Source of the DNA: Chondrosia reniformis
Taxonomy: Eukaryota; Porifera; Demospongiae; Chondrillida; Chondrillidae
NCBI GenBank assembly: GCA_947172415.1
Contig: OX359196.1
Location: forward strand, 1,862,501 to 1,926,500
Length of the DNA: 64,000 nucleotides
Reading direction: 5' to 3'
In this document: in pieces, positions 4,488-58,087 of the stretch
How positions within the stretch are numbered: position 1 is the first letter of the stretch
Layout: each line of letters starts with the position of its first letter
Notes under the pieces: model-generated
What the model was told of the DNA's origin: nothing
What the model saw: only the letters and a program-made list of their open reading frames with translations
The model's database searches: none
Position numbers and translations under genes: made by a program

Positions 4488-5665
4488 TTACTCTGAGTTA
4501 CCAATCACTGATCCAAAAGCAATTAAAAAATTACCATCAGATATTTTTGGTTGACTAAAATGACTAATCATACTTGTCAATTTGGCTTTCCATCCCGATT
4601 TCTGTATGCAGACACTATAGCTTGTTCTTTTGTGAAATGGTCTAATTAGAAAATGTTGTGCAAAGTAAAAAGCTAAGAATAGGCCAAGTAAGATAGAATT
4701 ACACAATTGAAATATTGTTATCAATGGCAGTACAAAAAGTACTCTGATAAGCATTCTCAATCCTAGCCAGAAGCCAAATGGACATGTATAAGCTCCATGA
4801 AATACATCTAAGTGACTGAACCATAAGCTATGAATGCAGTTTCTTCTCAAGATATCCCCAAAAAGAATAAATGCAGTCATTGGGAAAATGTATAAAAGTG
4901 CAACAGCAATAGATATAATTCCAAGAGCCAAATGCCTTCCCTTAACATATTGAAGAGTTGGTTGATATTGCCATACCCGATGAGCTTGCAGAGCTGTGTC
5001 TTGTGAGGTGAAGGTATACACATTAGTGTATCTGAGTGAGTCAATAATCAGACCTATAAGGTTGGTGTATGTTAGTAACATCAGTGTGGCCAACACAGGT
5101 ACAGCTCTCTTAGCAATAAAGTCCACTTTGAATATTCTCAAGTTAAACTTGTATGGTCCTAAGATGATGTAAACAACCTGCAAAAGTATTTAGAAAAAAT
5201 GGAAAGGCAAAGTGAAGCATGGATTTAGTAAACTCATCCATACCATTGTACAAGCACATGCCAAATCCACTTTTAAAGTTTAGAAGAGAAATGATGCTAT
5301 AGAAAGGCTGCACTGAATACTGCCTCAAGTGGTCATCATAGAGGTACATGATATTGGCATAGAAACTGATCCCATTGACAGTTACCTGGGAAATGGTCAA
5401 ATTAAAGAGAAAGAGTAGAGCAATGAGTGCTACTACTCCAAGAGCATAGAGAGGTATTACTAAGAGGTACCATGGTCCATCACAGTCAGCACATTGGAAG
5501 CCTCCAAAGACAGAGCTGTATATTTCCATAGGGACACTCACTGCACATGTAGCCGACTCTATTATTCTTGTTGTTGCATTGAATGGTTGAGAGTGGACTT
5601 ATGTCTTGTAAGGTCACTCCCACCTCTAGCAGCATCTTATTGCAAAAGAAATTTGGGCAATAATC
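4488..5665 (-). pseudogene. C-terminal multi-helix tail of a large surface receptor, frame-broken
   Basis: The minus strand encodes, in order, a Cys-rich EGF-like stretch (CNNKNNRVGYMCSECPYG), then YSSVFGGFQCADCDGPWY, then several membrane helices with NGISFYANIMYLY, FGMCLYNGMDEFTKSM, PVLATLMLLTYTNLI and FWLGLRMLIRVLF. These match, from memory, the conserved tail of large extracellular-repeat proteins common in sponges, choanoflagellates and filastereans (motifs like NGLIFYAN, ETCFYDGMD, PVAVLATLFLLSY, RYWVGLLLLVR). Two +1 shifts break the frame: near 5526-5530, after CPYG, and near 5172-5175, at LNTFA/VVYIIL. Both sit in short mononucleotide runs, so assembly error is possible. The ectodomain is not found upstream, and no convincing exon is seen between 5670 and 6345. 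The reading ends at a stop at 4488. Confidence 0.65.
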
Positions 5666-6950: not shown

Positions 6951-8733
6951 ATGGCAAAAACACACAATGCTTCATTTGTACTAAGAGAATTTGACTCTGA
7001 TAGTGACTGGGAACTATCAGAGGATGAACACTTGGAGATGGAAGAAGATGGAGAGCCTGAGCTTGTTAGTCCTTGTACTCCTTTAACCCCCTTGAAAAAT
7101 CCCAGGAAACAGCTGACACTGCAACTTTGGATCAAGAAGCCTTGCACTCCATCTGTCCCTCAGGATGAAAATGACGTTGTGCTGATGTGCAAATGGATTC
7201 CTTTTCATCAACACTAACTCCAGTATGTACCTCAACCCCAACAAGAAGTCTTTTGCCATCTTCATCTGAGTCAGAAGACTCTTTAGCAGCTAGCAGCCTT
7301 AGAATCTCTGTTCAGTTTGAGAAGCAACCAGGTCCACTTTTAAATGATGAAAGTGATGATCCCTGTGATTTTTTGCCACCATCCTTGGCATCAAGACATA
7401 TGATTACATAGCAGATCAAACTAACCTGTATGCTATAGTCAACAGCAGCAGTTATCCTCAACATCAACAACGTCACCATCATCTAAGTGGGAAGAAGTAA
7501 GCAGAGATGAAATGAGGGCTTTTCTTGATATCCTAATTGCTATGGGTGTTCACAGTCTACAGCTTAGCCGATTACTGGAGTACCCATCCCTTACTAGGGG
7601 CACCAGGCATTAATAAAGAAATGTCCAGAGATCGTTCTAAGGATATTCTAAAAAATCTACATCTTAATGATAATAGTAACATGCAAGAGGAGAAGCTGAT
7701 TTTGATTAGCTCTACAAAGTTAGGCCTTTGTTACATGAGATTAAGAAACAGCTTACCAGCCACATCAGCAAATGACAGTATAGACGAGGCAATGGTTTTG
7801 TTCAAAGGCAGATCCAGCATCAAGCAATACATGCCTTTGAAGCCAATAAAAAGGGGTTATACATTTGGTGCCTCTGTGACTCCACCAATGGCTTAGTTTA
7901 CAATTTTGAAGTTTATTTGGGTGCTATGGATGGAAATTCAGGCCAAGGGTTAGGTGAAAAAGTTGTCAATATGCTCTGTTAGCCAATCATTGAGAAAAAC
8001 CATACATCGCTTCTATATGGACAACTTCTTCAAAAGTCCAGCCTTGCTCTGTCTCTACGTGAAACAAACACGTTCATTATAGGGACAGCTCAGACCAATC
8101 GCAAAGGTATCCTTGAAAGTCTAAAAGACACAAAAACAATGTCAAAACCTTAAGAAGAGGTGACCATAGTTCAATTTTGATCCATGACAATAAGACTGAA
8201 TGTCTAATTTGGATGGATAAAAAGCCTGTTATGATCATAAATTCCATATCTGACCCTGCTAGCATGACTAATGTTAGTAGGACCGGAAGGGATGGCAACA
8301 GGGTGGAGATATCATGCCCAGAGAGCATTAGGCTCTATAATAAATACATGAGTGGAGTTGACTTGTTTGGCTTTAGAAGAAAGACATACTCATGTAGCAA
8401 AAAATCTAAGAAATAGTGGCTAAGGCTTTTCTATTTCCTCCTAGACATGACATTGACAAATTTCTACGTCTTACATAAAGCAATTAATAAAGAAAAACTT
8501 ATCTTATGGATTTTGTCCTAGGAGTGGCCATAAAGCTGATCTCCAGTTACAATTCTAGAAAACGCCCTCTCAACTACTTTGGTGATCCTCCATCTGACGT
8601 CAGATGTCGAGAGAGACACAATTCCTCTTATTTGGACAAGCCAGGACAATGCTGCATTTGCCAAAGGAGGAAAAGGACACGAGATTGCTGCAAGGACTGC
8701 ACGCTACCATTTCCAATCTATCTGTGTATATAA
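6951..8733 (+). pseudogene. piggyBac transposase (DDE_Tnp_1_7), frame-broken
   Basis: The order of parts matches piggyBac transposases: an acidic N-terminus (FDSDSDWELSEDEHLEMEED), a helical region (ADYWSTHPLLGAPGINKEMS), the catalytic core, and a Cys-rich C-terminal zinc-binding segment (CCICQRRKRTRDCCKDC). All three expected catalytic Asp positions are visible: SIDEAMVLFKGR near 7780, LYMDNFFKSPALL near 8017, and MSGVDLF near 8350. Pieces lie in all three forward frames with intervening stops (for example after TPPMA at 7896 and after KKSKK at 8416). This copy cannot encode a full protein and is an old insertion. Confidence 0.85.
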
Positions 8734-16640: not shown

Positions 16641-16652
16641 CTCATGGTTTCA

Positions 16653-16905
16653 ATATAAATTTCCTATAGGTTTTCTATAGACCTATATATGGCATTTTAT
16701 ATGCAGACTTTGTCCTCTGTTTTCTAACAAACGGAGGCCTATTGTAAATGAAAAATCCCTTATTTTAAAATGAGTTTTATACCCTGAACTTTATGATAAT
16801 ATACCCATTCTCTTTCTAGGTCCTTCCTTGAAGCCATATGAATTCTTTAATTATTTATATTATATTAGATTAGATTACCTTAGTATATTGTAACTTGTTA
16901 ATTAT
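16653..16905 (+). repeat. Dispersed repeat R3, partial copy 1
   Basis: The segment from AATATAAATTTCCTATAGG to TTACCTTAGTATATTGTAAC is shared, in the same orientation, with 26100-26350 and 51890-52135. Only the right half of the longer R3 unit is present here. No coding sequence is seen. Confidence 0.75.
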
Positions 16906-17200
16906 ATTTAGTGAATTAAGTGTACATAATAGCTTATTGTATTCACTTGTAAATTAACACAACTTGTAAAATTAATACAAAATTGAGGTCAATTCATATA
17001 ATGAATGTTAATGTGCTTTATCGATACAATTATATTATAATTATAATATTGTAATTATAATTTAATTGTAACAATATAGTTTTATTCATCCTTTCAGTAT
17101 GATACATATACCTTCCTGCTGTATTTTATGATTCACCATAATTTATGTATATATATATAGATCGCTTCTATAATAAAATGTAGTGAATTAAATATTCACT
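16906..17200 (+). repeat. Upstream block of membrane gene A, shared with gene B
   Basis: Two sub-blocks are shared with 20190-20400. One carries GTGAATTAAGTGTACATAAT and TCATATAATGAATGTTA. The other carries CCTTTCAGTAT and TACCTTCCTGCTNTATTTTATGATT. In gene A the order is first then second; upstream of gene B it is reversed. They are probably remnants of the duplicated unit, and could include the promoter. Confidence 0.6.
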
Positions 17201-17295
17201 TAAATTTCAGATAAATAGGGCACTAATTACATGGGAAAATATCAGTACAAATCAGTGGTTACGTGAGAACTTGACTAAAAGAGGACTAATATACT

Positions 17296-19442
17296 ATGGA
17301 GTCATCAAACTATAGAAAGTATAGTCTTCGTATAACAAATGCCATATTATCAGTAGCAGCTATGATTGTTTTTTGTGGATTCATAGTTTTAAGTAAGCAT
17401 ATGCATCTTAGTAGATTATATTAATAAATCTATTTCCCTACAATGATAGCTATATAACCTTTAATTGTCACACAAGAGTAACAGGGTAGTTCTATAGCTA
17501 TATAGTTACTTTCATTGAATGTAAAGTCGGTTTGTTGAGCTAACAATATCAGCATGCAACTATTTCTATTGAAACCACCAGTTGTAATCCTATCCTCATC
17601 ACACAGATTTTCAGACGTACAAACTTATACAGTGAAAGTGTTGATTATTTCTTACCCATTGGCCAATTGGGATAATTTAAAGTCATATTGAAGATTTGAA
17701 TTAGCCAATACTATTAGGGAAATTAGAGAAAAATTCCAAAAACTTTTAAATATATATGGTTTAAAAGTACCTATATACATATAAATGATTTGTTCCCAAT
17801 TCATATGCATGCAATGTAAATCCCTATTATAGTCATGCCCCTTTTCCCTATACTATAGGCTTCATAGGTCTAGTGATGACTTCTAAAGAGAATCAGATGT
17901 ATGCTTTGCCCTACATGCTGTATGCTACAGTTTTGGCAGTTCTGTTTCCTATTTTATTTACTTTTCAATTGAAGTACGTTGTTGACCTGATTATATACGA
18001 GAGCTTAACTGATCCTAACTATGTATTAAGGCAGAAAAAACTAGTCGACATGCAATTGTCCCATTTTGGATATTTACCAAATCACTTACCGCCAGAAGAT
18101 GCTGATAGTGATGTTGAAGAAATTGATTTATTAGAGATTACAGCTCTTGACCAAAGAGTAGTAAATGCAGACCAAACTTTATACAACCATTTGAACATAG
18201 AAGCTCTACTTGTTCTATTTGCTGGTAATTGTGCATTAACTCTGGCATTTTTATCATGTAAGTTAACTTGCATAGATGATGCAGTATATTTGTGTATAAT
18301 TTGCATGATTACATACGTCTTAGTTTATTTTGAATGAGAGCATTTATACCAACAATAATATAGGGTGCATGGATATATAGCCATGCAGATATACAAAAAT
18401 AATAATATGGTTATGTTGTACCTATGTAGGTTTTTGGGCTTTGTTCATCAGTTTATATCTGAAGGACGTGCAAATACAAACTGATGTTCCTTTCCACCTT
18501 GTTCGTGCTCTTGGTGGTATTCTTTTCCCCTTATCTCTGGCACTAGCAGTTGGTATTTACTCAGTAATACTACATTTTGTAACTGAAGCACAGATAGACA
18601 CAAGAACCTTAATGGAGTATTTACTTCCATCAATTAACTTCTATACTGGTCTAGATTCAGATGATGAAGTGCCAAATATATTCTTTTGGGTTATAGTGGA
18701 CCATTTCTTTCTATTTGCAAGGCATGGAACAGCAAATCAGGAAAAAATTGTGAAAAATTATGTGGATAAAACATTCAGCACATTTATCATAAGTATGATT
18801 ATAGTTTTTGCCTTTCAATTTGCAGTTCTTTATTTTTTCAATAATACGGTGATTCTAGATGCTACAGTAGCAGTACCCTCCAATCAAATATACTGTGAAA
18901 ACTACCTTTGTTTCAATGATAAGAGCAAAAGAGTTGATTGCAGTAATCCTAACAGCTTTATGAATCTTACCCATATCCACTGCTACAGATTTTTTAATGC
19001 AGACTCCAAATCACAGAATATTCTGTCTGCTTTTGGTATCACATTTGGCCTTTACTATGCAACAGTGGCTATATTTCAACTGCTTTCCTCATTTGCTTCC
19101 ATACTTCACAACTTTTATCCTGCCAGACTTTGGGGTATTCTTTTTACAGCTTTTGGTCTCATTGGAGTTGTTGCAACAATTACTTCATACTTTGTACCAA
19201 TTTTTGGAACTTTTCACACCACAGGGCTCGATACTTTACAGATTCTCGTTATATTTTTGTATCTAGTGTCAATAGGAATCCTCATTTGGATTGGCTCGGT
19301 TGAGGATATTGTTATGGCACCCTTAGAAAGCAAATCAATTCTTGTGAATAATGCTTTAAGCTCTAGTACTGTTACACCAACTTCTAGAGGCCTAGGGATT
19401 CGATACAGACCAACTCTGAGAAAAAGACACCGAAAGGTCTAG
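17296..19442 (+). CDS. Multi-pass membrane protein of an unrecognised tandem family, gene A
   Basis: Three exons, 17296-17392, 17859-18257 and 18430-19442, give 502 residues, with GT-AG borders and both introns in phase 1. I chose the ATG that opens MESSNYRKYSLRITNAILSV, leading straight into the first helix. About eight hydrophobic segments follow: one spans exon 1/2, the second is LPYMLYATVLAVLFPILFTF, the third spans exon 2/3, and the rest are in exon 3. Between helices 2 and 3 lies a soluble loop with SHFGYLPNHLP and ALDQRVVNADQTLYN. A second long loop carries FFWVIVDHFFLFARHG. A third, Cys-rich, loop has CENYLCF...VDC...HIHCYRFF and NLT glycosylation-type sites. It ends in a short basic tail (RKRHRKV). 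I know no family with this layout; transporter, channel or receptor cannot be chosen. It lies upstream of B and C on the same strand. Confidence 0.8.
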
Positions 19443-20032
19443 TCCTATATAGCAACACAAAATGCAAGATTTTTGATTCAGAAATGAGAAATATGCACAC
19501 ATTAAGTTATTAGAACATGATAATGCAAAAAATTTTAGAAGGAATTTCCACCTGGAAACATTTATTAAAGAAATCTGGTTTGTACGTATTTAACAATCAT
19601 GCATGGCTTATATGGAGTAATATATGTCTTTAGCAATCATGCATTTATATTAATTTTGAAAAATTAAATTGTTGAGATTCAACCGCACCCCATGCACGAC
19701 AGCTGGTCTTACCCACCTCTGCTTAATTTACCACAAAGTTATGCTGACCAAGACGGGCCATTTAAATTTGTATATATGTATCTCCCTGAAGGCGTGAAAT
19801 GTCCCAGTAGCCACATGTACACATACATATGCATGTACGAATATGTATTTGTATATGTGTTTAAATGCAGTCAAATTTTGTGTTATTTGATTTCCTTCTC
19901 AAAGTAAATTTTCCATTAAGCATATATGGTTGTTAACTTTTAGACCCTCAAAAAGACTGCCAGCTATAGGCCGGGTCCTTATATGGACATGTAAGAGGGC
20001 TACAAGATGTGAAAATATTATATGTATATATC

Positions 20033-20118
20033 ATTTGGCGGTTAATTGTTGAGCTTGGCGTGGCGTTATGAAACAAGAATTTCAATGCTACGGCAAGCTC
20101 AACAATTAACCGCCATAT
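20033..20118. repeat. Short foldback (86 bp) between genes A and B
   Basis: ATTTGGCGGTTAATTGTTGAGCTTG is mirrored about 36 bp later by CAAGCTCAACAATTAACCGCCATAT, giving a near-perfect hairpin. It may be a tiny MITE or structured element upstream of gene B. Confidence 0.8.
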
Positions 20119-20189
20119 ATTCAATGTAGCGATGAACCTCCGATCATTCATATATGTCATGTGTTCTATGATGATGATTATTTCCTGTT

Positions 20190-20400
20190 ATATTTCAGCC
20201 TTTCAGTATATATAATATACCTTCCTGCTCTATTTTATGATTTATGTTAAGTATATTTAGATCACTTATATAATTAAATTTAGTGAATTAAGTGTACATA
20301 ATAGCTTATTGCATTCATAGCTAAGTATAAGTTATCACTTGTAAATTAACACAACTTGTAAATACATTTGTGATCTGTTCATATAATGAATGTTATTATG
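20190..20400 (+). repeat. Upstream block of membrane gene B, shared with gene A
   Basis: This carries the same two sub-blocks as 16906-17200 but in swapped order. It ends about 130 bp before the gene B start codon, so it may include promoter DNA copied with the gene. Confidence 0.6.
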
Positions 20401-20530
20401 TGCTATAAATATATTGTTAATTGCCCTAGGAACATTATAGAAGCTGTATATATATATTTACAGGAGCAATTATCAGTTACCACAGAGCTTAAAGTGTTTT
20501 TGATACGTGGTTGCATGCGACTTGGAGTAA

Positions 20531-22405
20531 ATGGGAAGTCTCCTTATCCAAAGCAAAGTGACACTCCTAGTACTGAATATTATCTTAAGTATAATTGCTT
20601 TAGCTGCTGCTATAGGGGCTATAGTTTTAGGTATGTTGCTGTAAAATCTATAACATACCAGTATATGTATATATATTATCGTGCGTATATATATCATGTA
20701 AAATATACATATGTATATATCTGTGTATAGGTATATGTGCTATGGTTTTAGCTGTTAAGGGAAACTATGAGACATCATTATACATTATGATAGCAGCCAC
20801 AATTACAGCAAGCTTCTATCCGATTTTTGGAACTGTGCTAATAAAATATTCCGTTGATTATATTATTGTTAGCAGTGACACTATTCAATATGAAGCTGAA
20901 CAAGCAGAATTACGGGCGAAGGAACTGAGTTACTTTGGATACATTCCTAATGGACTGCCTATAAGAGCGGAAGATGATTTTGATGGCAATATGGCTAATA
21001 TATATAGTGTTAGAGCTTTGGATCACATAGTATCATCAGTGGACCAGAGGCAATACAATGAATTAACACTTACCAGTGGATCTTCCCTTGTGCTATTTTC
21101 TGGCAACTGTGCTGCAATGTTATCACTGCTGTCAGGTAAGGTATAAACTATATATATATATGCTATTGTGGTAAATATGTCAATTATATACATGCGTATA
21201 GACACACATGTATTATACATAATACAGACAGAGGAATACAAATATATATAATAGATATACGTATATATATAAGCATGGATGTTTTTAACCTAGAGCATAA
21301 TTATGTTTAATGTTGTGCGTGCATACTGGCAGAAATATTGTTAAATTATTCTTTTCTCTATCCTTTAGCTTTCTGGGCAGTTTTTACAGCTTTTTATATG
21401 TGTGAATATCCTGTGCCTTCTGTTGCAATATTTCACATGGTTAGAATTCTTGGTGGAGTAATCTGTCCTATATTTTTGGTAGTAGCTATAGCTGTATATG
21501 CTGTTGTGGCAAACTTTATAACTAATGGTCAACTGGATTTTCGAACATCCTTTCAGTACTATCTACCTGCTGTAAATTTTATGAGTGGACTTGATGAGGA
21601 ACCAGAGGATGTTATTCGTGACACAATACCCACTCTATATTTCTGGGTTATAGCTGATCATTTCTTCATCTTTGCTAGACATGGCTATTCAGATATGGCA
21701 AAGACTATTAAAAATTTTGCTGATCATACCCCTGCCACATGGCTACTTACCTCAATTATTGTCTTTGCAGTTATATTTGCTTTCCAGTACTTCATTAACA
21801 CAACCATAGTTTTGGACAAGACTGTAATGATTCCTTTCACAACTGATAAATGCAGTGGATACACATGCTATGCTGACTACTACTATGGGGTAAAAATAAT
21901 TGATTGCCAGAATCCAGTCACTTATGCTAATCTTACACATTTTCATTGTTTTCGTTTCATGACTGTAAATAATCAAAATAGTCAAAGCTTTTTGACATCA
22001 ATTGGCATTGCTTTCAGCTTGTACTTTGCTGCTGTAGGATTATTTCAATTGTGTGCTTCATTTGCAGCTTTGCTTCACCATCTTTGGGCTTCAGATATTT
22101 GGGGAATACCGTTTATTGTCCTTGGTATAGCTCTTCTTATAGTAGCTATAACGTCATATTTCCTTCCAATTCTTGGCAATGTACACAGCAGTGAAGTTGA
22201 CACTTTCCAGGTAATACTTCTCGCTGTGTACATCATAATAATCGGTATTTTGCTGTTACTAGGATCTGTGCAAGATGTTATTCTAGCACCAAATGAAACA
22301 AAGTCTCTACTCCTTAATGTTCAAGACCGTAGTCAAAATACAAATTTTATCGGTAGAGGTTTACGTTATAAGCCAGCGTTCAGAGGATACAGGGAAAACA
22401 ATTAA
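20531..22405 (+). CDS. Multi-pass membrane protein of an unrecognised tandem family, gene B
   Basis: Exons 20531-20630, 20731-21135 and 21369-22405 give 513 residues. Both introns are phase 1 and fall at the same protein positions as in gene A. The N-terminus MGSLLIQSKVTLLVLNIILS leads into helix 1. The first loop has LSYFGYIPNGLP and ALDHIVSSVDQRQYN, close to gene A. Exon 3 repeats the A pattern: FWVIADHFFIFARHG, DHTPATWLLTSIIVFA, the Cys loop C..YTCY...IIDC...HFHCFRF, then helices with SLYFAAVGLFQLCASFA and LGSVQDVILAP. B is much closer to A than to C. A poly(A) signal AATAAA lies at 22465-22470. The function is unknown. Confidence 0.8.
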
Positions 22406-24210
22406 GAAGAACTTGTTTTTGTAGCATTCATTAGCACATGTGAATGATATATACAACTGACATGAATAAAATTCTTGTATACCTATAATATTATGTATAA
22501 GATGCAACTAAAACAACTTGTTGCTATAGGTACAAACGTATATGTATATATACGTATATATATGCAAATTTCTATATACAAATATTAACGTTGTAATACG
22601 TATGTACAATATATATACACGAACTTAATATAATCTATATAATATAATATATATATATACCCACATTTACATACATCTAAACAATATAGGAGTATGGATT
22701 ACTGACCTTTGAATAAAATCCTATACCCTTACATTTCCTAGAACATTCGCTGTAATATATATAGCTATTGGCTTATAGTATATTGTTATAATACATACAT
22801 ATACGTATACCTATAAAAAGATAATCAGATAATATGTATGTATTGTATGAATTTTGAAGGAAGGAAATTATATAATAGACCTGTAGAAAAATTATAAGAT
22901 CCTTCCCACAGCTTGAATAACAAACACCTACATACGCATATATATGTACATATGGAAGGTTGGTTTGCAATAGTCATTTGTTTAAATAAAGCTTCCACTT
23001 CAATTGAGTCGAAAACCTCTCATATTTTAGCTTTTATAAACAGAAAGCACCATTGCAGTTTACTTGGAGAACATACTAAAAGTAGCTATAGGGAGTTCAA
23101 AACCTATAGATTAAGTGATATTGTTTCATATATAATTGCATATTAACAAAATGGCCTGTCTGGTTGAGGTGCCTCTTGACGTAGAGCACATGGAACACTT
23201 GAAGGAGCTCTACTTGTTAATGTATATAAGTACAGAATGGCCACCCATTGAGTACACAAGACATCTGCCAATTTCATGCAACCTCCAGTACACCATACAT
23301 CCATCAACCACCATGGTTAACATTAATTGTGCTAAAAACTATATACTGCCCCTCCGGGTGCATGAGTGGGAAGCATCTAAATGTTCATAGTTTGTTTTCT
23401 GTCTTTCCTCTGCATTGGCTACACAATACCTATGTCTCTGGTTGCATTTGAGGAGCATGATTGAGCAAATGTATACCAAAACAGGTGAAGTCCCATTTCC
23501 TGGGCTTCTTTCCTAAGGAATTAAATATTTCATCACATTTGGAGCAGTATAACTGTAAGCTCCAATTGGGAAGGGACCTTCACAGAATTCAAACAGTTCA
23601 TAGCTTAACAGATTTGTTGATGTTAGTACAAAAAAACAGTATGTATTTCTGTATAAAAAGCTGCATCAATATTATAATAAAACTTGTAATAGTACATGTA
23701 TGCATTTAACCGTACCCTTAAAAACCAATTATATAATAAGTAACTGAAAGTGCATGCATATTATTTGCATGCAATTCGTACATATTAAACATGCATGTAA
23801 ATACACATATACGTACGTACGTATGTGCAATATCATTTTATCTGTATATATTTCATAGGAAGGAATTATTCAAATCACTATTATAGAGCTGTAGGAAAAT
23901 TGTATATAAGTAGGATTTTTCCCACTGCCTTCAAATGACAAACACCTGCTATTATGTATTGCTCAATAATAGAAGCATAATATAATTTGTATTATATATA
24001 CTTACAAGGTGCATTCATAAGTATATTGATGCAATATAATATGATTATAAACTCATGGATGTGCAGTTATATGAGTAATTAACACCATTGCATTGCAATA
24101 CCTATATATAAAGACAATACATATGAATTATGTATAATAATATGTAATATAAATTGTACATATATATATATTATTCAAATCCCATTTAAATCTATTTTAG
24201 AGGACTAGCA
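22406..24210. other. AT-rich spacer between genes B and C
   Basis: It contains the poly(A) signal of gene B at 22465 and many TATATA / TACGTA tracts. Short plus-strand open frames at 22913-23709 show no domain or homology that I recognise. The small boxes GGAAGGAATTATTCAAATC (23859) and GGAAGGAAATTATATAATAG (22859), each followed by similar text ending in CTTCCCACAG / TTCCCACTG and ACAAACACCT, look like two copies of one short repeat. Confidence 0.4.
22465..22470 (+). terminator. Poly(A) signal of gene B
   Basis: A canonical AATAAA lies 60 bp after the stop codon of gene B. Confidence 0.55.
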
Positions 24211-27200
24211 ATGTGCTTTCAAAATGGAAGGAGATTTTACCGTCTTAATACCTGTGTAGGAGTTGGAACAGGTCTACTTTCTCTTGCTGTACTTGTTTTA
24301 GGTTAGATAATAAATCAACTTTAGATAATATGTACATATGTATATACGAATGTGGTTAGTTGTATTATGTACTGCGTAAAGCATAATCTAACTTAATTTA
24401 TATGGCTCCTGGGGAGTCCAAATATTCTCAATATATTGAAGGTACTTTTGGATATTTAAATTATATATATAGGCTCTATCATCATCATTATTGAACTCTA
24501 GATATTACCGTTGCCCACTCATGTCCCCTGGAGGAGCACAATGAGTTAATTATAATGGGCAGAACCAAAGTTCACTTGATGGGAACCAGAGTCTCCCCCT
24601 AGCCACTCACAAAGATCGATGATCAAGCCATGGACAGCTGTTTCGTCCTTATTAGGACTCATCAGTATGGCATACGATGGAAGCTTGAGTGGCTAGTCTG
24701 CTAATAAGTACTCCCAAAAGCAAAAATGCTTATGGTTTCCTTATCAGCAGATAAGGGGTACAGCCAAGAGTGTGACTGGCCCACTAATATGGAAAAAATA
24801 GGGGAACTTTAAGATCCAAAGCTAATTGACCTTAAAGCATTGATATCATCCATCATCACTGAACTCTGGATATTCCATTAAGATAAATTTGGTTCCACGC
24901 CCAGTAACTCATTGTGCACCTCAGGGAACATGATGATGATGATGATATTAATTCTTTAAGATCGGCTTTGGATCTTGAGATTCCCCTATTTTCTATATAG
25001 CATTTGTTTTCCCATAAATTGGGGATAACTTCAAATAATGTATGCATTTAATATACTCAATTCATCCATTTTTTGACAGTTTTACTCTGTACTGTATTAT
25101 AATCAACTGAAAATAGGTCTCTCTCTCTATCTCTCTCTATAAATATATAGCCATTGCAGCCATTATTGTTGCTGGTGAAGGGATATTAAATACAGCAATC
25201 CTTTTGATGATGGTATCAAGTGGACTGGCATTGATAGTCCCCATTTGTCTGACCATTTTGATTAAACTTCTAACAGAGTATGAGGTTCTGAAGGCCAAAC
25301 AGAAAGAATATTTAGAATATGCTGAACAAGAAGACCAGACAGAGCAAGACTTCTTTGAACAGGAATATGACCAAATTGAGAGAGCAATGCGGGCTGTGTT
25401 TGCAGAACCATCCGTCGGAATAGAACTACTGTATACATTTGATACACATTTAGTTGATGTTGATCCTGAAAATATACAAAGTATGCCAGCAAATGTATTC
25501 ATTGCAACACTCTTTGCAAGTTACTTCACGTTTGCTTCACTAATGTCAAGTATGTTAACATATATCACTACACATTAATTCCATGCACATGATATATATA
25601 TATATATATATATATAGTACTACACAGTGCAAGTTACAAATTTATATATACACGGATGCAAGTGACTCCCAAGATAATCACACTGAGGTATATAATATAA
25701 TACGGATGCAAATGACTCCCTAAATAATCACAATCAGGTATATTAAACGCTACAAGACTTTAGCCACACTGAAATTCTCAACTGCTGCATACAGAGTAGT
25801 AGTCTCTACAGATCATATAAGGTTAAATACATGGCCTTCCAATTACCGTTTTCGCAACGTCACATGATTCACAAAATGTGTGTACGGAGCGACATACGAA
25901 GGTGTTGGTGACGCATTCGAAGAACATCACAATACATCACCAGCTTGCGCAATCGTAACTTTGAATTCTTCATTATATCTTGATTATTTTGCTCATTTAA
26001 TTAAGCAACACTTCGCCAGACGTTTCTTATACACATGAACCATGATATATGTTGATTTCACAGTTATCTGACAAATTGAAATTTTTTATTAATATAACAC
26101 ATGGTTTGCATATAAATTTCCAATAGGTTTTCTATAGTCCTATGGCATTTTATATGCAGACTTTGTCCTACGTTTTCTAACAAACAGAGGCCTAAATGAA
26201 AAATCCCTTAATTTAAAACGAGTTTTATACCCTAAACTTTATGATAATATAACCATTCTGTTTCTAGGTCCTTTCTTGGAGCCATATGAATTATTTAATT
26301 ATATTACATTACATTATTTAGATTACCTTAGTATATTGTAACTTGCACTGTATATAAAACTTAATGCAAAGTATATATATAATATATAGTCATCAAGTGG
26401 AAAATGTTATACGTACGTACGTATCTATAAATTTTTGTGGTTTTTGAATTACTAAGGTAATTACATACTTATATAAGTTTTTGCTTAAGAAGCTACTTGT
26501 TATACTTATATTCTTTTTCTTATATATTACTATGCACAGTTCTTTGGACAGTTTTCCTTGGATCATATCTACAGCACATGAAACTATACAGTGTATTACC
26601 ATACATTGGTGTTCAGATTCTAGGAGGATTCTTGTGCCCCATTTTTATGACGATTGCAGTAGGAATCTTGGCAGTTGTAATGCTTTACATCACAAGTGGC
26701 AGATTAGATTTTCGTTTCACAATGCAATTTTTGATTCCAGGTGTGGAATTCAGAACTGCCATACCTGCTAACACCTCAGGGCCAGAAGAAGAAGTTAAAT
26801 TTGATTTTTGGCTAATAGCACATCGTTTCTTTATCAAGGCTGAACACAAGAGCTTTGAGGATCCAACTGGTAGTTTAAAAGATTATGTAGATAAAACCCT
26901 GTCAACGTGGCTTCTTACGGGCATTGTAGTCTTATCTGTCTTACTTGCTACATCCTACCTTATCAATACAACCATTGTATTTCAAGGATACATAAAGTTA
27001 CCAGTATCCTTGGATATATGTCAGTCCCGATATTGTATCAAAGAAAGTATGGAGTTAGTAAACTGTACAATGCTCCAAAATTTTACTTCTGAGAGAAGGA
27101 TCTACTGTTTTTGGTTTCTAGAGACAGACGACAGGTTGCAGTTGCTCAAGTCTGTGGGTGTAGCTTGGGGTTTACTGTTGGCCACACTTGCCTTCTTCAA

Positions 27201-27519
27201 AATCTTTTTCATCTTAGCATCATTAGTAAATGAAATTTATCATTCTAGGTTCTGGGGAATAGTGTTTGTTGCAATAGGTTTAATAGCCTTTGCTGCGATC
27301 TCAGCTGGATATTTTGCACCTGCTAATGGAGCGGCCAGATTAGATATTGTTAGAGTTGGGCAGGCATATGTACTTTGTCTATTCCTTGTAATTGTAGGAG
27401 TATTGTTACATAATTCATCAGTGAAAGACTACATCAAGGCTCCATCCTTAAACAAAGCAATAATAACAGAACCAAAGGATTACCTATTAGCAGCAAGTGG
27501 AGACCTCTTTGAAGATTAA
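24211..27519 (+). CDS. Multi-pass membrane protein of an unrecognised tandem family, gene C (divergent)
   Basis: Exons 24211-24301, 25151-25549 and 26540-27519 give 489 residues. The phase-1 introns match A and B, but here they are swollen by repeats (850 and 990 bp). It starts MCFQNGRRFYRLNTCVGVG before helix 1. The first loop has diverged and become very acidic (EYAEQEDQTEQDFFEQEYDQ), losing the YFGYxPN motif. Exon 3 keeps the skeleton: LGGFLCPIFMTIAVGILAVV, FWLIAHRFFIKAEH, YVDKTLSTWLLTGIVVL, the Cys loop C..RYCI...LVNC...RIYCFWF, and three C-terminal helices. The A/B signature DHFF.FARHG has become AHRFFIKAEH. This suggests an older duplication with changed function. It converges on the dehydrogenase gene, with only 148 bp between stop codons. 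Confidence 0.78.
24475..24985. repeat. Retroelement-tail-like insertion in intron 1 of gene C
   Basis: It is bounded by related CATCATCATTATTGAACTCT and CATCATCACTGAACTCTGG motifs, with ATGATGATGATGAT near the right end. Inside is CTGTTTCGTCCTTATTAGGAC-TCATCAG, a motif type I associate with 3' ends of invertebrate retroelements. No protein is seen. Confidence 0.4.
25620..25856 (+). repeat. Diverged copy of one arm of the 50-kb palindrome
   Basis: This runs parallel to the left arm of the palindrome at about 50115-50330 (CACAGTGCAAGTTACAAATTT, CTACAAGACTTTAG.CACACT, GAGTAGTAGT, CAGATCAT, ACATGGCCT.CCAATTACC). It lies in intron 2 of gene C and runs straight into R3 copy 2. Confidence 0.7.
25857..26350 (+). 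repeat. Dispersed repeat R3, copy 2
   Basis: This is nearly the same sequence as 51630-52135 over about 490 bp, from CAACGTCACATGATTCAC through GTATATTGTAACTTG. It sits in intron 2 of gene C. Confidence 0.85.
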
Positions 27520-27667: not shown

Positions 27668-28552
27668 CTAGTAGTCTTCACCGGCAAAAAAGGACTTTTC
27701 TCCAAGTCCTTCAGGTCCCATAGCAGTGTAGCCTCCATCTACAGGTATATCAGTGGCAGTAACATACAGCGAGTCCTTACTAAGAAGGAAGGCCACAACT
27801 GCTGCAATTTCCTTAGTCTCTGCCATCCTGCGAGGCATATGGAAGTTGCCCCAAATTGGCTCCCATTTGTCTCTATCTCCCCCAGCCGCCTTAGATACTT
27901 CAGGTGACCACACCCAGGCAGGACTAACAGAATTGACACGTATTCCACTGCCAGATAAATCAAGTGCCATACACTTGGTCATAGTCAATACAGCTCCTTT
28001 GGTAGCAGAGTATGTCCACCTCTTTGGCTGGGCCTGATGTCCTGAGATGCTGGCAATATTGACGATGGACCTACTAGTCGATATAGGTGCTTCACTGTGG
28101 TGCTCCAACTTCATAAAGGGATGGCATGACTGTACCATATTGGAATAGCCCACAATATTTACATTTAAACTCTTATCCCAATCCCCTTTCTCTGCAGTTA
28201 GGCCTTTCGACCCGAAATACACAGCGCAATTGACGAGGCCATTTATAACACCTTGATGCCTCGAAGCGAAGTCTTTTACTGCCACTCTGCACTGATCTTT
28301 ATCAGAGACGTCAACTTTGTAGTAAACAGCTGTCTTTCCTTTCGATGTAAGCTCTGCTTGCAGTTTAGATCCTAAGGATTCGTTGACATCAAAAATGGCG
28401 ACTGTTGCTCCCTCTTCCACTAGTCTTTCAACTGTAGCCCTTCCTATACCAGAGGCACCTCCCGTAACTACCACATTATGATCAGCAAAGCGACGGCAGG
28501 CTTGTTCGTTCAAAACAATTGTCCTCGATCCAGGAAGTTCCGAAGTTGCCAT
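27668..28552 (-). CDS. Short-chain dehydrogenase/reductase, intronless
   Basis: A single-exon ORF of 294 residues. It has a classical SDR fold: an N-terminal extension of about 25 residues, the cofactor loop TGGASGIG at residues 30-37, an Asp at the end of strand 2 (VAIFDVN) that suggests NAD(H) rather than NADP(H), VDVSD, the stabilising Asn in LNVNIVGYSN, the catalytic Ser in NIASISGH, and the YSATK catalytic Tyr/Lys. The usual NNAG is replaced by NCAVYFG, an unusual variant. The C-terminus (ATDIPVDGGYTAMGP) is typical of FabG/cis-diol dehydrogenase-like SDRs. It is probably a soluble oxidoreductase of small alcohols or ketones; the substrate is unknown. The lack of introns among spliced neighbours could mean retroposition or an old bacterial origin. 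The start is the first Met after the minus-strand upstream stop region. Confidence 0.9.
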   Translation of the reverse strand: MATSELPGSRTIVLNEQACRRFADHNVVVTGGASGIGRATVERLVEEGATVAIFDVNESLGSKLQAELTSKGKTAVYYKVDVSDKDQCRVAVKDFASRHQGVINGLVNCAVYFGSKGLTAEKGDWDKSLNVNIVGYSNMVQSCHPFMKLEHHSEAPISTSRSIVNIASISGHQAQPKRWTYSATKGAVLTMTKCMALDLSGSGIRVNSVSPAWVWSPEVSKAAGGDRDKWEPIWGNFHMPRRMAETKEIAAVVAFLLSKDSLYVTATDIPVDGGYTAMGPEGLGEKSFFAGEDY

Positions 28553-28802
28553 GTTGGGCGCTAAGGTAGGCTCTTATATTAGATGGCCCATGTGTAGACT
28601 AAAAGGGCAAAGGGTTCCACCTAAATGTTGGTCGGTAAAGAAACGAACCATTGCAAATAATAATTAAAAAATGCCTTTTGCTTTAGAGACTGACATTTAA
28701 ATGGTGATTAAAGAATAAGTTATTAAATGAATAAGGCAGGCTGAAAATATTGTACAGTTGAAAGAAACGGATAATTCTATATAAGGGTTTCACAACCACA
28801 AA

Positions 28803-38000: not shown

Positions 38001-41000
38001 GACTACGACGTTATTTTGAGTTGCCAAAAAAAAACTTACAAACTAGTTTTAATAAGTATAAAAAAGAAGGAATTCAAGTAAATAAAAACATTTAAAAATG
38101 AAATGGGAAGTAGGGATGGCAGTCCCTGCAACAGTACCTATCACATCTAGAAAAAGCAATGAAACAAGACAATGATCATATAATAAGGCTAAACAATACA
38201 CAAATGGAATATATACTGCCTCAAATTTCAGTGACTTAACAATACACATCACTTCCATGTTTGGGTGCACTATCCCTACTTCAGCCATCATGGTGCGCCC
38301 AAACATGGAAGTGATGTGTATTGTTAAGTCACTGAAATTTGAGGCGGTATATATTCCATTTGTGTATCGTTAGCCTTTTTATATGATCATTGTCCTGTTT
38401 CGTTGCTTTTTCTAGATGTGATAGGTACTGTTGCAGGGACTGCCATCCCTACTTCTCATTTCATTTTTTAAATGTTTTTATTTAAATATATAGGGTTAGC
38501 CAGTGTTGGAACCATGAATAGCATATCTGGAAAGAATAATGAAGTAGATATTGATCATGTAATATGGCTAACTGTTCAGAAGTGGCATACATTCTGCAAC
38601 TGAACAACAATTGGAATTAAGTATAAAAAAAATACTCTCCCAAAGATTCCTTGCGAGATATTTAGCTAGTATACTGAACCTCACTTTAAAACTGCTCCTT
38701 ACACTTGAGTGATAAAACATCTTTTACTTAAACACTTTTTTAACTTTAGTTTGTAGTTTGCCAGAACTCTCACAAGTCTGTCTGATTCAAGGATTGATAT
38801 CTAAAGTTCCACATTCTGTTCTGCTCAGCTGTGGACAAAGTAACTGTACAGTGCATGAAGTTTTATTTTTACTGGCATGTGAGATATTTGATCAGTAAGT
38901 TAAGTATGCATAATGTACGTATACGTGTAGTATCAGTATTAAAGGTTATGTAACAGCTTTTCTAATTTGCTCAAAGCTTTTGAAATGATATGCCTTAGGT
39001 AATAACTAATATAATCTAAGTAGTAGAATAAGGATTTCTTCTGATTGTGTTGAACTTATCTTTTGAAAGGAATTGTTATAATAAAATGGGTGATTTGTGC
39101 AAGAGTTTTATAATTATAATTTTGGCTAACAATGAATACCTGTATGATACAAATTGTAAAAAGTTAACGTACGCCCGGTCGTCCCCTGTAGGTTTATCTG
39201 TATCATACCTGTACATTTTAAGCAGAATTCCCGTATAACGACCTCCTTAGGAATGTCTACATATCTACTAGTATGCCCATAGCTATGGAATATGCACTTA
39301 CAGGGATGATTATTAAGAATGTCACACCTTTCTGAGATTCATTTAGAGTCGAGATTCTTCAGTGTTGAGTTGAAGAATGTTTTTCTCTGATTATGTTAAC
39401 AAACGCCCGGCGAGCGTTAACTTTTTTACAATTTAAACCATACTATGAAAGAGGAGTCAGCCTGGAGGTGTTTGGTGTGTAATGCCTTGCCTTCTTTCTA
39501 TTGGATGGGCCCCTATGGCCTCAGAAATAGTATATACAATTATGCAATATTTTTCAGAAATAATATACAATTATGCAACATTCCTCTAATTTCACAAACC
39601 GTGAAAAATGATACACATTTTTACTGACTTATTATTACAGTTCCTCTAGAGCAGCAATACAGTATGTTGGATCAAGAGTACTTTGTTTATGGACCAAAGT
39701 GACAAGGTAATGTATGTAGTTATCTTGTAGGCAATGTATACTGGATAGTTTAACCCTTAAATGCAATCATATTTAATCGATTAAACTCTAGCGTCCTTAC
39801 CTACTATTAAGCACGTGTGTCTTATATTGGATGCACTGTATCTATTCCTATGTACGGTACGTGACACGGAAAACTTACTCTGATCTGTAGAATTCTGCAT
39901 ATATCCGTTGCAGACGTCTGCAAAGAGCCGTGGATATTTCGTACAAATCCGTATGGAAAATGATGGAATGTAGTACATTTGTGTACGTGCTTGCGAACGA
40001 ATTTGACACTTGCGTACTTGTAGGCCATAATCCTGAACGAACGAACGAAACACATTTTACAGCAACGCGCACTTGGCCAAGGATGGCTCATGTTAGCTTT
40101 GAATTCAATATAGGTATTATAAAGTGCAACAACGAGAAAAGAGTGAAGTAGCTACATACGTTAAGGGTTCTCAGTTCCAGGAACAATCTTGATCTTGCGA
40201 CATACATCTTCTATTGTGTTCCTCATCTCCTTTTCTGCTGTTGTCCCGGTCTCCAAACGGTCCAAGGGATAGTGCTTAATGCAAGTGGAGAAAATCGCCT
40301 TCACCTTCAGGCAGTTGAGGGCTGTCTTACCGCAAACTCCTCTGCAATTGCTGCTGGCCTTTTCTTGTGTGGTAAACAGCTTGTTGGCCAGACGAGCCGC
40401 AAGGTTCCTTCTCGATTTGCAGCTGGCAAGGTATTGGTTGACGTCTTCCTGGACTATCGCATGTTCATAGCTGGCGACAGCCCCACCACCGACACTTCTG
40501 TTGGAAACGTCCAGTAGGGCTGGGGATTGCGAGGGATTGGAAGGCATCCAGTGTCCAGGGCGTGAAAAGTCCACAGCTTGAGATAGTGATGGGTTGAAAG
40601 GCGGGCAGACACCAGCGCGTGTTGGTGTAGGTATCAATCCTGTCTCCTCAGGCCACCATCCTTCCTCTGTATATGCGAGGACGCACTTCAGTTTGTCTAC
40701 GTCTTAGGAAGCTTAGTTGTGATACTTTAAAGACCAAACTAGCTTATCACTCGACAAATCAACCGAATTACACTACTTGTTTCTCGCTTGTAAATCTCGA
40801 TCGAGGTGGCGTATGTACATTACAATAATTTTTGCTTCACATATTTGATTGTTTCAGTTATCTGGACATGGTCCAGTCCCGTTGGGTCCGGATAAGCGAG
40901 GGTCCACTGTACATAATCTATTCTGGTATGATTTGTGGGTCTTAACTTTTACTGTTTCAAGGATTTGTCTCACTGGTGGACATCCCATGCCCAGGCGTTC

Positions 41001-47000: not shown

Positions 47001-50000
47001 ATACCAAATTTGGTGCTTCTCAGTTTATTTATGTAGAAGTAGATAACTTTTTGACACTTTTTGAGGTGAAATTTTTCGACTTTAAATTAAAATATCTTGG
47101 TAATGGAGTAGCCAGTCAAATTATAGTTGACACCAAATAATGTGCAATTTACCTGTTTATTTTACTTGTAAAATTCAAGTTAGTTGGACTTATGATGATG
47201 GACTTTGAAAATGGGCACCAGGGGTTGCATTGAAGGCATTTTTAGCTTGCTACTGTACCCCCAACTAGTAACTCACTGCAAACTCAATAATTTTTGGACA
47301 AACAGGAAATAGCAAAGATAGTGGGGGGAGAACATCAGAAAAGAGGCAAAAGGAACAGGTTTGACTTGTTCCTTTTTCTTGTTATTTCGCACTAATAATA
47401 GATTACAAATTATATTTCAAACACCAAGACTTGAAGGTGTGTTCTAACAGTTTTGACTGGGGTGATTCAAAGGATGAGGGAACCTGACAATTTTCCTTAG
47501 GAAGAGTAAATATCTGGATGTAGACTCAGCTCAAGTCAGAGGAGATGATACAGTAGAAATGAATACAAATATACCTACCAAGTGTATCACACAACACCAA
47601 CCTTACTGAGTCTCTTGGGAATACACACTAAATTATCCTTATTACAGTATTTTCACCCCCTTAACAACCAACTTATGCAGCTAACAACTTCTATACACCA
47701 AATAATGTATAATGTAACGAAAGTTATTTTGAAAGGTTCATATTCGACTAACTTTTTAGCACTAGAAATGCAGGTGTTAATCTTGATTGTGAGATGTTTC
47801 GAGAATGTTTATTCCCAAAAAATAGATTCTCACAGCATATTTGCGTAACACACATTCTGTGATGATTTGTGAAATCACCATTGAAATAAGGTAATGTCTA
47901 CATTTTTTTAGATTTGGTTGGATCCACTGTTTGGTGTACTTTGTAATGGATCTCAACGTCAAAGGATGTTTATTAATAGAGTAAGACAAGTTTTTTAATG
48001 TAGTTTGCCTAGATATATTTAGTATTTAGTTTTTAGGCCACATTAAATTTTTTGGTGTGTCTTTATACTATGCAATCATGTCCTTTGTACTGTGTGAGAA
48101 ACGTATATGTCCTTTGTACTATATGAGAAACGTATATGTCCTTTGTGCTATACGAGAAACGTATATGTCCTTTGTGCTATACGAGAAACGTATATGTCCT
48201 TTGTGCTATACGAGAAACGTATATGTCCTTTGTGCTATACGAGAAACGTATATGTCCTTTGTGCTATACGAGAAATGTATATGTCCTTTGTACTATATGA
48301 GAATCGTATATGTCCTTTGTGCTATATGAGAATCGTATATGTCCTTTGTGCTATACGAGAAATGTATATGTCCTTTGTACTATACGAGAAATGTATATGT
48401 CCTTTGTACTATATGAGAAACGTATATGTCCTTTGTGCTATACGAGAAACGTATATGTCCTTTGTGCTATACGAGAAACGTATATGTCCTTTGTGCTATA
48501 TGAGAAACGTATATTTCAAGGATTCTGGGACTTTGTTTTCTAGTATTGTCTGAGTGCTCCAGATGTGTCAGACTCTGCCTTGGAGTACTTGCTTTGTAGC
48601 TTTCCTGAAGTGACATCTTCAACAAAACAAGGTAAAATTTAGGTTTGCTGTGAATTTAAACTACGTATTAATCATTAGCTGGTGTATACATATGCTTATA
48701 TGAACATATGTTTATTTTTACAAAATATTTTTTTTTGTAATTGTTGAATTACCAGATTGTCGGTTTTGAAGTTGCATGAAAAATCTAAGATACCATTTTC
48801 CTACATGCTATATGCCTATTCTGTAAAAGAGCCTATAGGGGAACTAAACCTGAAGAGAGCTTTTGGATGAGGATACAGGAGTCTTTTTTTCCTTCTTTTT
48901 CCTTCTTTCATCTTCTTCTCCACTGGGTCAGACAGCCGTTTCTGGGAATTCCACCCTTCATCAGTGATCCTGGGAGTCTTTGTCTTTTCTTCATCTTGAT
49001 CTTCTGTGAATCCTTGGCATGTATTTGTTTTGCTCTTTAAAAATGCAATTTTTGAGCTAATTATATGTAAAACATACAGCATGGTTCATAAACAGGTATT
49101 TCGAATTTAAAACATGTGGGGCTGCCCCCCCCCCCCCCCCCCCCGAATTAACTCAAACTACTTGGCCGCATCGTTGGCCTTTAATATATATATATTCTTA
49201 ACAGTTACCCGTAACTGGGACTATTTATTACGTCACTACCGTCGCGTCACAAAATGTATTAAATCTCCATACATCGAAGTGTGAAGTTTATATATATAAA
49301 CGTTTTCGCTAAGATGGATAGAGTCCTTATACGATATATAAATAACGAATCAGCAAGATATGACGGGAAAGATTACTTAGAAGCAGCTAAGAAGGTAACC
49401 TTTCTATCGAAGTACAATTGCACTATCTGTTGTTTGCAGTATGTATAGTTAAAACCATTACTCTTACCTTCAATCGTTGATTTCACAGTTACGAGGACAT
49501 ATATAGGCAAGATCAGAATGTCAAAATACATAGTCATTAACAGTTAACAGATCAAAGTTAACCGTTACCTGTTACCAGTTTTCGGTAATAATTAACTGAA
49601 AATGGTAACTTCTAACCATTAACATTACTTCTTTTTTTATGAACCGTACTGTAGCTGTGAGCCTGATATTACATGAATTGACTGTGTGTTTTATATACGT
49701 TTGTTGCATTTCAAAGTCAAGCACTTTTGAAAGACTCAAAAATGAATATATACAGTACTGATTAAAAGTATTATAACTAAAATGATGAGTAGTGATAGTT
49801 ACATCTTTATATTAATTGTTCTTGTGTCACATTACTGACTGATGCTTCAGTGTCAGTTAAGAGAAGCAAAGTTGCATCCATAATGTAGTTGAGAGTGTAT
49901 ACCCTTGTTCTGAATTTTTGTTTCCTGATTGTATATATATATATTGTCTATAAGTATAGTGAAATACTTTGTTAGCTAATTACACTCAAGTACACTACAC

Positions 50001-53000
50001 AGTGCAAGTTACTAGCAAATATATAAAATATTAAATTACAATCAAGTACTACACAGTACAAGTTACAAATTTAAGAGATCCAAGTGACTATGTAATATTA
50101 AAATTACAATCAAGTACTAGCTACACAGTGCAAGTTACAAATTTAAAGAGATCCAAGTGACCCCTAGGATAATCAGTATTTTAAACAGTACAAGACTTTA
50201 GTCACACTAGTACTGTTGCAGGCTTTGAAATCCTCAACTACTGCATAGAGAGTAGTAGTTGATACAGATCATCCAATTGCAAGGTAGAACACATGGCCTA
50301 CCAATTACCTTTTCACACCTTAGTATAGACTGAAGATGATGCATCTGCATGCCATATATCAACAAAGGCTTCAGTATTAAAGGGGTCTCAGCTAATAACC
50401 ACAGCAGATTTGATTTGCCTTGTGAGGGAGCTAAGAACACCGACGGTTGGTTGCATGCATTGGCATAATCAACAGGGTTAGAGACCATTTTGTAACTTGT
50501 ACGCAAGGGACATCATATACGTATATAAAGGCCTTGGCCTTTTATGTCCCTTGTGTACAAGTTACAAAATGGTCTCTAACCCTGTTGATTATGCCAATGC
50601 ATGCAACCAACCGTCGGTGTTCTTAGCTCCCTCACAAGGCAAATCAAATCTGCTGTGGTTATTAGCTGAGACCCCTTTAATACTGAAGCCTTTGTTGATA
50701 TATGGCATGCAGATGCATCATCTTCAGTCTATACTAAGGTGTGAAAAGGTAATTGGTAGGCCATGTGTTCTACCTTGCAATTGGATGATCTGTATCAACT
50801 ACTACTCTCTATGCAGTAGTTGAGGATTTCAAAGCCTGCAACAGTACTAGTGTGACTAAAGTCTTGTACTGTTTAAAATACTGATTATCCTAGGGGTCAC
50901 TTGGATCTCTTTAAATTTGTAACTTGCACTGTGTAGCTAGTACTTGATTGTAATTTTAATATTACATAGTCACTTGGATCTCTTAAATTTGTAACTTGTA
51001 CTGTGTAGTACTTGATTGTAATTTAATATTTTATATATTTGCTAGTAACTTGCACTGTGTAGTGTACTTGAGTGTAATTAGCTAACAAAGTATTTCTTAT
51101 AGACATTCGCTATAAGCAATTTTGTTACTGTATGTAGTACACATGGAAAATGTACTAACATGGATAAGAATAAAGCCTAGTTGAAAGTCAGCAATATGAA
51201 TTTAATAATTCTGGACGTTTCGACCCAGAGGTCTTCATGCATCAGCAATATATGAGGAGTGGGAATACAATTCAGTATAAATAGGAAATTAGTAAATTCA
51301 TGTTGCTGACACTCAACAAAGCTTTATTCTCGTAATGATCGCAACAAACACTCCTAATTCCTACACATGGACAATTAAAAATATTAACAGATAACGTAAG
51401 AAGAGAAGGCAGAGCTTAAATTGCCAAAGTAATACGGTCGACCAAACGAATCCAGTCTTTCGCATCAATATAGGAACAACTCTGCCTCAAACTTGACGGG
51501 AACGTATACAAAAACGCTTTATCTAACCTTGGCTACAACTCGCCTGTTCGGTAGCTCCTTCTCGTAGGAGAGCGTCGACTTGTCATAGCCGTTCTCGAAG
51601 GATGATCTTCTTTAGCAACGAGTCGGAGACGTTTACGCAACGTCACATGATTCACTAAATGCGTGTACGGAGCGACATACGAAAGTGTTGGTGACGCATT
51701 AGAAGAACATCACAATACATCACCAGCTTGCGCAATCGTAACTTTGAATTCTTCATTATATCTTGATTATTTTGCTCATTTAATTAAGCAAAACTTCGTC
51801 AGACGTTTCTTATACACATGTACCATGATATATGTTGATTTCACAGTTATCTGACAAATTGAAATTTTTTATCAATATAACACATTGTTTGCATATAAAT
51901 TTCCCATAGGTTTTCTATAGTCCTATGGCCTTTTATATGCAGACTTTGTCCTCTGTTTTCTAACAAACGGAGGCCTAAATTAAAAATCCCTTAATTTAAA
52001 ATGAGTTTTATACCCTAAACTTTATGATGATATGCCCATTTTGTTTCTAAGTCCTTTCTTGGAGCCATATGAATTAATTTATTATATTATATTATATTAG
52101 ATTACCTTAGTATATTGTAACTTGTACTGTATATATATAGTTATCACTGTAAACCACAATGAGAGCACTTTGCCTTTTCCTTGCTTAAACCTTGTACTAA
52201 AGTTCACTTGTAAACACTCTTGAGGAGTCCCTAATTATTTTTACAATTGTAATTTAATGTAATCTTACTCTTGAGACCATGCTGATCATTTTCTGTTTTC
52301 CAAGACTAGGCATAACATTGTAATTTCTTATCTAATTCATGTAGATGACAGCATACTTTCGGCTCAGTTGGAATGTCTAAAGTTGATAGTGAATAGGTCA
52401 TCTCAGAAAGGTCAAAGTTCTCATGACTCTTACTGGAACATGTTGGATCATGCTCTGAAATCTGTTTCTGATGATGTAAGATACTACAGGCCTCAAATCT
52501 ACTTTGTATTAGTGCAATAGCTGTCTTGTTATCGTTGTATAACTTGGTTATGCTATGTTCCTATAGTTTTGATTGCTAACCATTTGAATACTGCATTGCT
52601 TGCAATTGTTTTTATAGAAGTATTCAATCAGTAAAGTAACTTTTTAGTTTATTTGATAATTTGCAAAGCAAATACTTAAGTTTGTTATTCTTTTGTTGGT
52701 TTAAGCTTGTCTGAACCATTCAATGGGGGAAGCATTTTATATTGTGTATGGATACAATTTGTGTGAATACATGTTTGCAGTTTTACATAATATGTTATGT
52801 AGTTCTTAAAACAGTTTATGGCAACTGAATAGAAATTTTAATAGCCTTCGTATCCTGGTTGTTTTGCAGGTGAAGGTGGCTGCCATGGGACTGTTGTGCG
52901 AGTGTAGGCATACTACTGAACCGCCCATGGAGGAAGGCCTTAACCTCATACTGAAGTGCCTGCCAGACATTATGAACAGCCAGTCACCACTGTTTAGACA

Positions 53001-58045: not shown

Positions 58046-58087
<42 letters not shown>

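Follow-up and report, generated by a model that had tools for sequence, protein, structure and literature searches.

A tandem array of three paralogous genes encoding predicted eight-helix membrane proteins in the sponge Chondrosia reniformis, with a claudin-type lead for their C-terminal half

Claudins and tandem clusters in sponges

In members of the claudin group, both termini are described as cytosolic, the first outer loop as large, and strands 3 and 4 as linked by a disulfide (PMC13307082). Reports disagree on whether claudins occur in sponges and in other animals outside Bilateria. Freshwater sponges are stated to have sealing epithelia; the Amphimedon genome is reported to lack occludin and claudin genes, and 'unknown molecular components' are suggested (PMC2993944). 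No claudin was found in a glass sponge either (PMC10280926). By contrast, PMC7385117 names a claudin of Ephydatia muelleri. According to a figure legend in PMC9729800, claudins have 'only been identified in Cnidaria'; the text of the same paper mentions claudins of placozoans and claudin-like genes of ctenophores.

In E. muelleri, tandem clusters whose genes have the same intron-exon structure are described as common (PMC7385117). For Amphimedon queenslandica, 10,644 genes without a UniProt match are given beside 19,271 with one, and some of the unmatched genes may be wrong models (PMC3447736). The locus described here comprises three genes (A, B and C) of Chondrosia reniformis, located in a 64-kb window (window: the whole stretch of DNA that was analysed). 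It resembles the Ephydatia clusters in that neighbouring paralogues have an identical exon structure. It differs from them in its three copies with 25-42% identity, whereas the coding sequences of the Ephydatia clusters, among which families such as integrins are named, are described as closely similar (PMC7385117). Sponge genomes are thus rich in tandem clusters and in genes without annotation, and an undescribed tandem trio is ordinary and its novelty modest. No published description of the A/B/C family was found among the matches listed by title and abstract start. The phrase 'eight transmembrane' in PMC12716839 was a false lead: where it occurs in that paper, it denotes a GPCR filter.

A tandem array of three paralogous genes

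Gene A (17296..19442, + strand; 502 aa) has exons 17296-17392, 17859-18257 and 18430-19442. Gene B (20531..22405, + strand; 513 aa) has exons 20531-20630, 20731-21135 and 21369-22405. Gene C (24211..27519, + strand; 489 aa), the most divergent of the three, has exons 24211-24301, 25151-25549 and 26540-27519. The spliced models thus confirm the three neighbouring same-strand genes, with these lengths and three exons each, that had been proposed in a first-pass annotation of this DNA. Each of the six introns has GT-AG borders and lies in phase 1. In the three proteins, their sites interrupt alignment columns 36 and 177, as expected from the two equivalently placed phase-1 introns that the annotation had noticed.

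The paralogues match each other by blastp far above chance (E values: A-B, 2e-124; A-C, 3e-56; B-C, 1e-62). Pairwise identity over aligned codons is 42.1% (A-B), 25.2% (A-C) and 29.2% (B-C). This paralogy and the common intron positions support the tandem duplication already suggested in the first-pass annotation. The 'one strongly diverged member' mentioned there fits C; with three paralogues and no outgroup, either an older split or a faster change may account for its divergence.

The third exon of each gene contains at least 325 codons without a stop; in a 2 Mb dinucleotide-Markov sequence read in three frames, no run of that length occurred (longest: 176). The aligned codons differ at positions 1/2/3 by 46/34/61% (A-B), 59/43/64% (A-C) and 56/43/68% (B-C), the third positions being close to saturation. 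Position 2 is the lowest and position 3 the highest in the three pairs, and the pattern is therefore that of constrained proteins. In-frame stops are located 3 to 24 bases upstream of the starts of A, B and C (at 17287, 20528 and 24187, respectively). Possible poly(A) signals follow each gene: ATTAAA variants only, from 122 nt past the stop onward (A); AATAAA at 60 nt (B); AATAAA at 126 and 136 nt (C). No fourth copy was found by tblastn of the A, B and C proteins against the 64-kb window at E 1. An off-register match of 17 residues between TM2 of B and TM7 of A (E 0.34 and 0.50) was obtained by tblastn and was judged to be due to chance. The sequence evidence establishes A, B and C as paralogous protein-coding genes that result from tandem duplication and are under protein-level constraint. 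Family and tandem array are both real, and no family in the Pfam, NCBIfam and PDB profile searches gives a credible match to them.

Several repeats are found in and around the array. Copies of a dispersed repeat (87.5-94% identical), probably a mobile element, are located at 16643-16897 (upstream of A), 25847-26356 (intron 2 of C) and 51630-52135. Two stretches on opposite strands, 50045-50317 and 50740-51012, also match parts of intron 2 of C. Near-identical 92-residue frames, one on each strand and located within 50234-50512 and 50482-50823, indicate an inverted duplication. The 5′ flanks of A and B (16882-17191 and 20194-20407) are 73-80% alike in two blocks whose order is swapped. This likeness, despite a third-position difference of 61% between the genes, could reflect kept regulatory DNA, conversion or a common repeat. 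An 86-nt self-complementary palindrome (79.5%) between A and B (20033-20118) looks like a small inverted-repeat element. An inverted pair (24795-24858 and 24934-24992; 81%) lies inside intron 1 of C.

The window is low in GC and its genes lie close together; its other features are as follows. Two long ORFs in overlapping frames at 4488-5598 (- strand) contain, on visual inspection, several hydrophobic stretches and gave no match in Pfam at E 0.1; they are probably part of another multi-pass protein. Transposase fragments at 7537-8413, which we take to be piggyBac-type, match DDE_Tnp_1_7 (first, E 3.8e-14; second, E 0.0095, below cut-off). A short-chain dehydrogenase ORF (27671-28573, - strand; PF13561, E 2.8e-52) is convergent with C, the ends of the two being separated by about 150 bases. 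An ORF in a GC-richer patch (40161-40703, - strand) matches a BEN domain below threshold (E 0.00034; 21.2 versus 23.2 bits). The repetitive stretch 48030-48553, open in overlapping frames with YVLCAIRE / YMSFVLYEK-like units, is likely a minisatellite. Two ORFs within 52810-63097 match THADA/Trm732 families (PF25150, E 6.4e-09; PF10350, E 1.7e-18).

Predicted topology and searches for known families

Eight hydrophobic segments (TM1 to TM8) were found in each protein by a 19-residue hydropathy scan. According to K+R charge and sequons, the preferred prediction places the two ends of the protein and the loops that follow TM2, TM4 and TM6 inside. K+R summed over inside/outside loops are 23/8 (A), 19/6 (B) and 23/10 (C). 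Part of this bias arises because the inner loops are longer, and the gap per residue is smaller: 9.7/7.1% (A), 8.0/4.8% (B) and 10.6/8.3% (C).

The predicted outer loop between TM5 and TM6 contains four cysteines that A, B and C all share, and each protein has one or more sequons inside this loop. The four-cysteine span is located at 18894..18983 (+) in A (C321, C326, C336, C350; sequon N344), at 21851..21949 (+) in B (C330, C335, C348, C362; sequon N356) and at 27019..27108 (+) in C (C324, C329, C339, C353; sequons N338 and N344). The middle pair is spaced C-x9-C in A, C-x12-C in B and C-x9-C in C. A further sequon directly follows TM5 (N303 in A, N312 in B, N306 in C); a sequon in this position may be too near the membrane for use.

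The loop after TM4 carries a conserved FW[VL]I...FF..A.H stretch: FWVIVDHFFLFARH in A (18684..18725, + strand), FWVIADHFFIFARH in B (21641..21682, + strand) and FWLIAHRFFIKAEH in C (26806..26847, + strand). The coordinates of these motifs and of the four-cysteine spans were counted by hand on the sequence. The about eight helices and the four-cysteine loop that the first-pass annotation had predicted are found in A, B and C. Its motif FW(V/L)I..(H)FF stands in part: FW[VL]I is present in the three proteins, but the histidine is only partly common (DHFF in A and B, HRFF in C). Another motif, S[HY]FGY[LI]PN.LP after TM2, is common to A and B and absent from C.

Hydropathy, charge, sequons and invariant cysteines together suggest eight-helix membrane proteins with cytosolic N and C ends, whose TM5-TM6 outer loop is probably disulfide-bonded and glycosylated. 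The sequons and cysteines of this loop would fit a protein of the secretory pathway or of the cell surface. The adaptation to some surface role that the first-pass annotation had expected of a putatively lineage-specific family is a weaker reading.

A single outer loop rich in cysteines and long loops on the cytoplasmic side, as predicted for A, B and C, are also what could be expected of a lineage-restricted family of chemosensory or ligand-gated receptors or channels, in which the outer loop would bind a ligand and the helices would form a pore or relay a signal. Chemoreceptors typically form small tandem arrays of divergent multi-pass paralogues, and the array resembles such sets. A GPCR has seven helices and its N end outside; the eight segments with N inside that charge and sequons predict here do not fit. 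No Pfam family of receptors or channels is listed for A, B, C or their parts, and only three copies are present within the window. A receptor or channel family is held to be rather unlikely.

The best full-length Pfam match is that of A to tetraspanins (PF00335, E 0.0086). This weak local likeness reaches 16.2 bits against a cut-off of 32.1, and it covers residues 14-68 of A (profile positions 42-96), i.e. the first two helices only, in one of the three members (not listed for B and C). All remaining full-length Pfam matches have E values of at least 0.028; one of them, DUF1418 in one other member, is sub-threshold (best E 0.028). Six protein parts searched against Pfam gave four rows, all sub-threshold (DUF308, DUF202, PIG-P, DUF3169). 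The best NCBIfam matches, an antiporter subunit (E 0.31) and a putative permease subunit (E 8), each in one member, are not credible. Against PDB profiles, the full three-protein alignment gave no match and TM5-8 gave one at E 1, considered as chance. No claudin family was listed by hmmscan at E 10, a search whose filters drop most weak matches. A significant match of all three proteins to one characterised family was thus not found in Pfam, NCBIfam or PDB profiles. Within these three collections, where no match is above cut-off or credible, the 'unrecognised' status given to the family in the first-pass annotation holds.

A transporter or lipid-handling polytopic protein, of the plasma membrane or an internal one, would find some support in the glycines and prolines that are invariant within or close to the helices and in the invariant aromatics of the cytoplasmic loop of A, B and C; the FW[VL]I...FF stretch would then be an interfacial helix near the substrate path. 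No family of this kind reaches its cut-off among the rows shown, the two NCBIfam matches included. An internal repeat was searched for by hhalign of helix groups and rejected (14 comparisons; best: 8.4% probability over 16 columns), which also argues against a transporter. This possibility is rated as rather unlikely.

The query was built from three sequences only, and A, B and C might be strongly diverged, distant members of a described animal family that lie beyond the sensitivity of the Pfam, NCBIfam and PDB searches. The lack of any credible match in these searches speaks against such an origin, which is considered as unlikely. Relatives were also searched for in non-animal collections, whose null results say nothing about animals. 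None was found in viral contigs (three-protein alignment, exon 3 of B, exon 3 of A; few short peptide patterns), in prokaryote genome contigs (two peptide patterns, 134 stretches) or in plasmids (tblastn with 297 residues of exon 3 of A). The two genome-contig scans ended with identical patterns and stretches and count as one.

The TM5-TM8 half and the claudin group

The best single guess, a tentative one, is that A, B and C are plasma-membrane scaffolds with a claudin/PMP22/TARP-type module made of TM5-TM8. The likeness concerns the predicted order of these four helices only: a helix, a large outer loop with a cysteine pair round a predicted hairpin and a second helix (TM5-TM6), then a short inner loop, a helix, a short outer loop, a helix and a cytosolic tail (TM7-TM8). 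As judged from hydropathy and charge only, the order and the inside/outside assignment of TM5-TM8 would fit those of the claudin bundle; four extra helices are predicted. The middle cysteine pair sits at the predicted hairpin, and a disulfide between strands 3 and 4 is putative. By contrast with claudins, PMP22 and TARPs, A, B and C have eight predicted helices instead of four and four loop cysteines, and they lack W-GLW. The claudin signature is W...[GN]LW..C...C; it is visible in the claudin and TARP sequences compared, and W-GLW before the cysteines is absent from the three proteins.

The claudin/PMP22-like idea for TM5-8, which the order of the loops and the C-x9-C spacing had suggested, was recorded ahead of the fold searches. 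The structure prediction and fold comparison called for in the first-pass annotation yielded models, but these are poor and no significant fold match was obtained. The folded stretches each come from a single exon: exon 3 of A (mean pLDDT 44.0, pTM 0.27) and TM5-8 of B (mean pLDDT 53.5, pTM 0.35). Three strands are predicted in the latter model, at this pLDDT, versus the five-stranded antiparallel extracellular sheet of the claudin fold. Loop cysteine 2 lies inside strand 55-60, cysteine 3 two residues past strand 63-67 and cysteine 4 inside strand 81-84.

A Foldseek search of PDB with B TM5-8 gave a TARP chain as first row (E 0.37, TM-score about 0.25; not significant). TARP (6) and claudin (1) chains make up seven of the best 50 of 135 rows, with 182-202 columns aligned; other proteins make up 43. 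These seven rows show the same few proteins repeatedly and thus count as one or two observations. With exon 3 of A, the best E value was 0.89 and none of the best 50 of 82 rows was significant; they include five VKOR, a DUOX1-DUOXA1 chain (rank 2) and one TARP chain (7ldd_G, rank 33). B TM5-8 against viral models gave a best E of 0.31 and no theme among the best 50 of 279 rows. At these pLDDT values, the fold searches with A exon 3 and with viral models are uninformative.

Profile comparison by hhalign gave a score of 17.6 for TM5-8 versus three claudins and one TARP (12.7 versus the claudins; 16.0 versus the TARP). At block sizes of 5, 10 and 20, respectively, 26, 27 and 24 out of 200 shuffles scored at least as high, and the value of 17.6 is not above chance. 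In a smaller shuffle set (n=30), the top two scores, 17.7 and 18.0, exceeded it. One of 200 shuffles per block size reached the score together with at least 60 columns (real pair: 80), by a criterion that was chosen post hoc and is not claimed. As a positive control, claudins versus TARP gamma-2 gave 73.7% probability. The failed profile test and the missing W-GLW lead to the wording that the TM5-TM8 half possibly works like a claudin-fold protein, not that it is one. The claudin-fold group, as suggested by cysteine spacing, predicted topology and the redundant Foldseek rows, is a lead for TM5-TM8 and implies no membership.

If TM5-TM8, together with the outer loop, work as a claudin/PMP22/TARP-type module, this module might make side-to-side or cell-to-cell contacts or bind a partner channel or receptor. 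The predicted cytoplasmic loops that follow TM2 and TM4, both of them acidic, might then carry cytoplasmic partners. It is very improbable that A, B and C represent a new architecture, in which a four-helix N-terminal half is fused to a claudin-fold module, and are candidates for sealing or receptor-seating parts of sponge epithelia.

If the claudin-type proposal for TM5-TM8 is false, A, B and C are another undescribed membrane protein family. If it is true, they would bear on the molecular basis of epithelial sealing in sponges, a lineage from which claudins have been reported missing.
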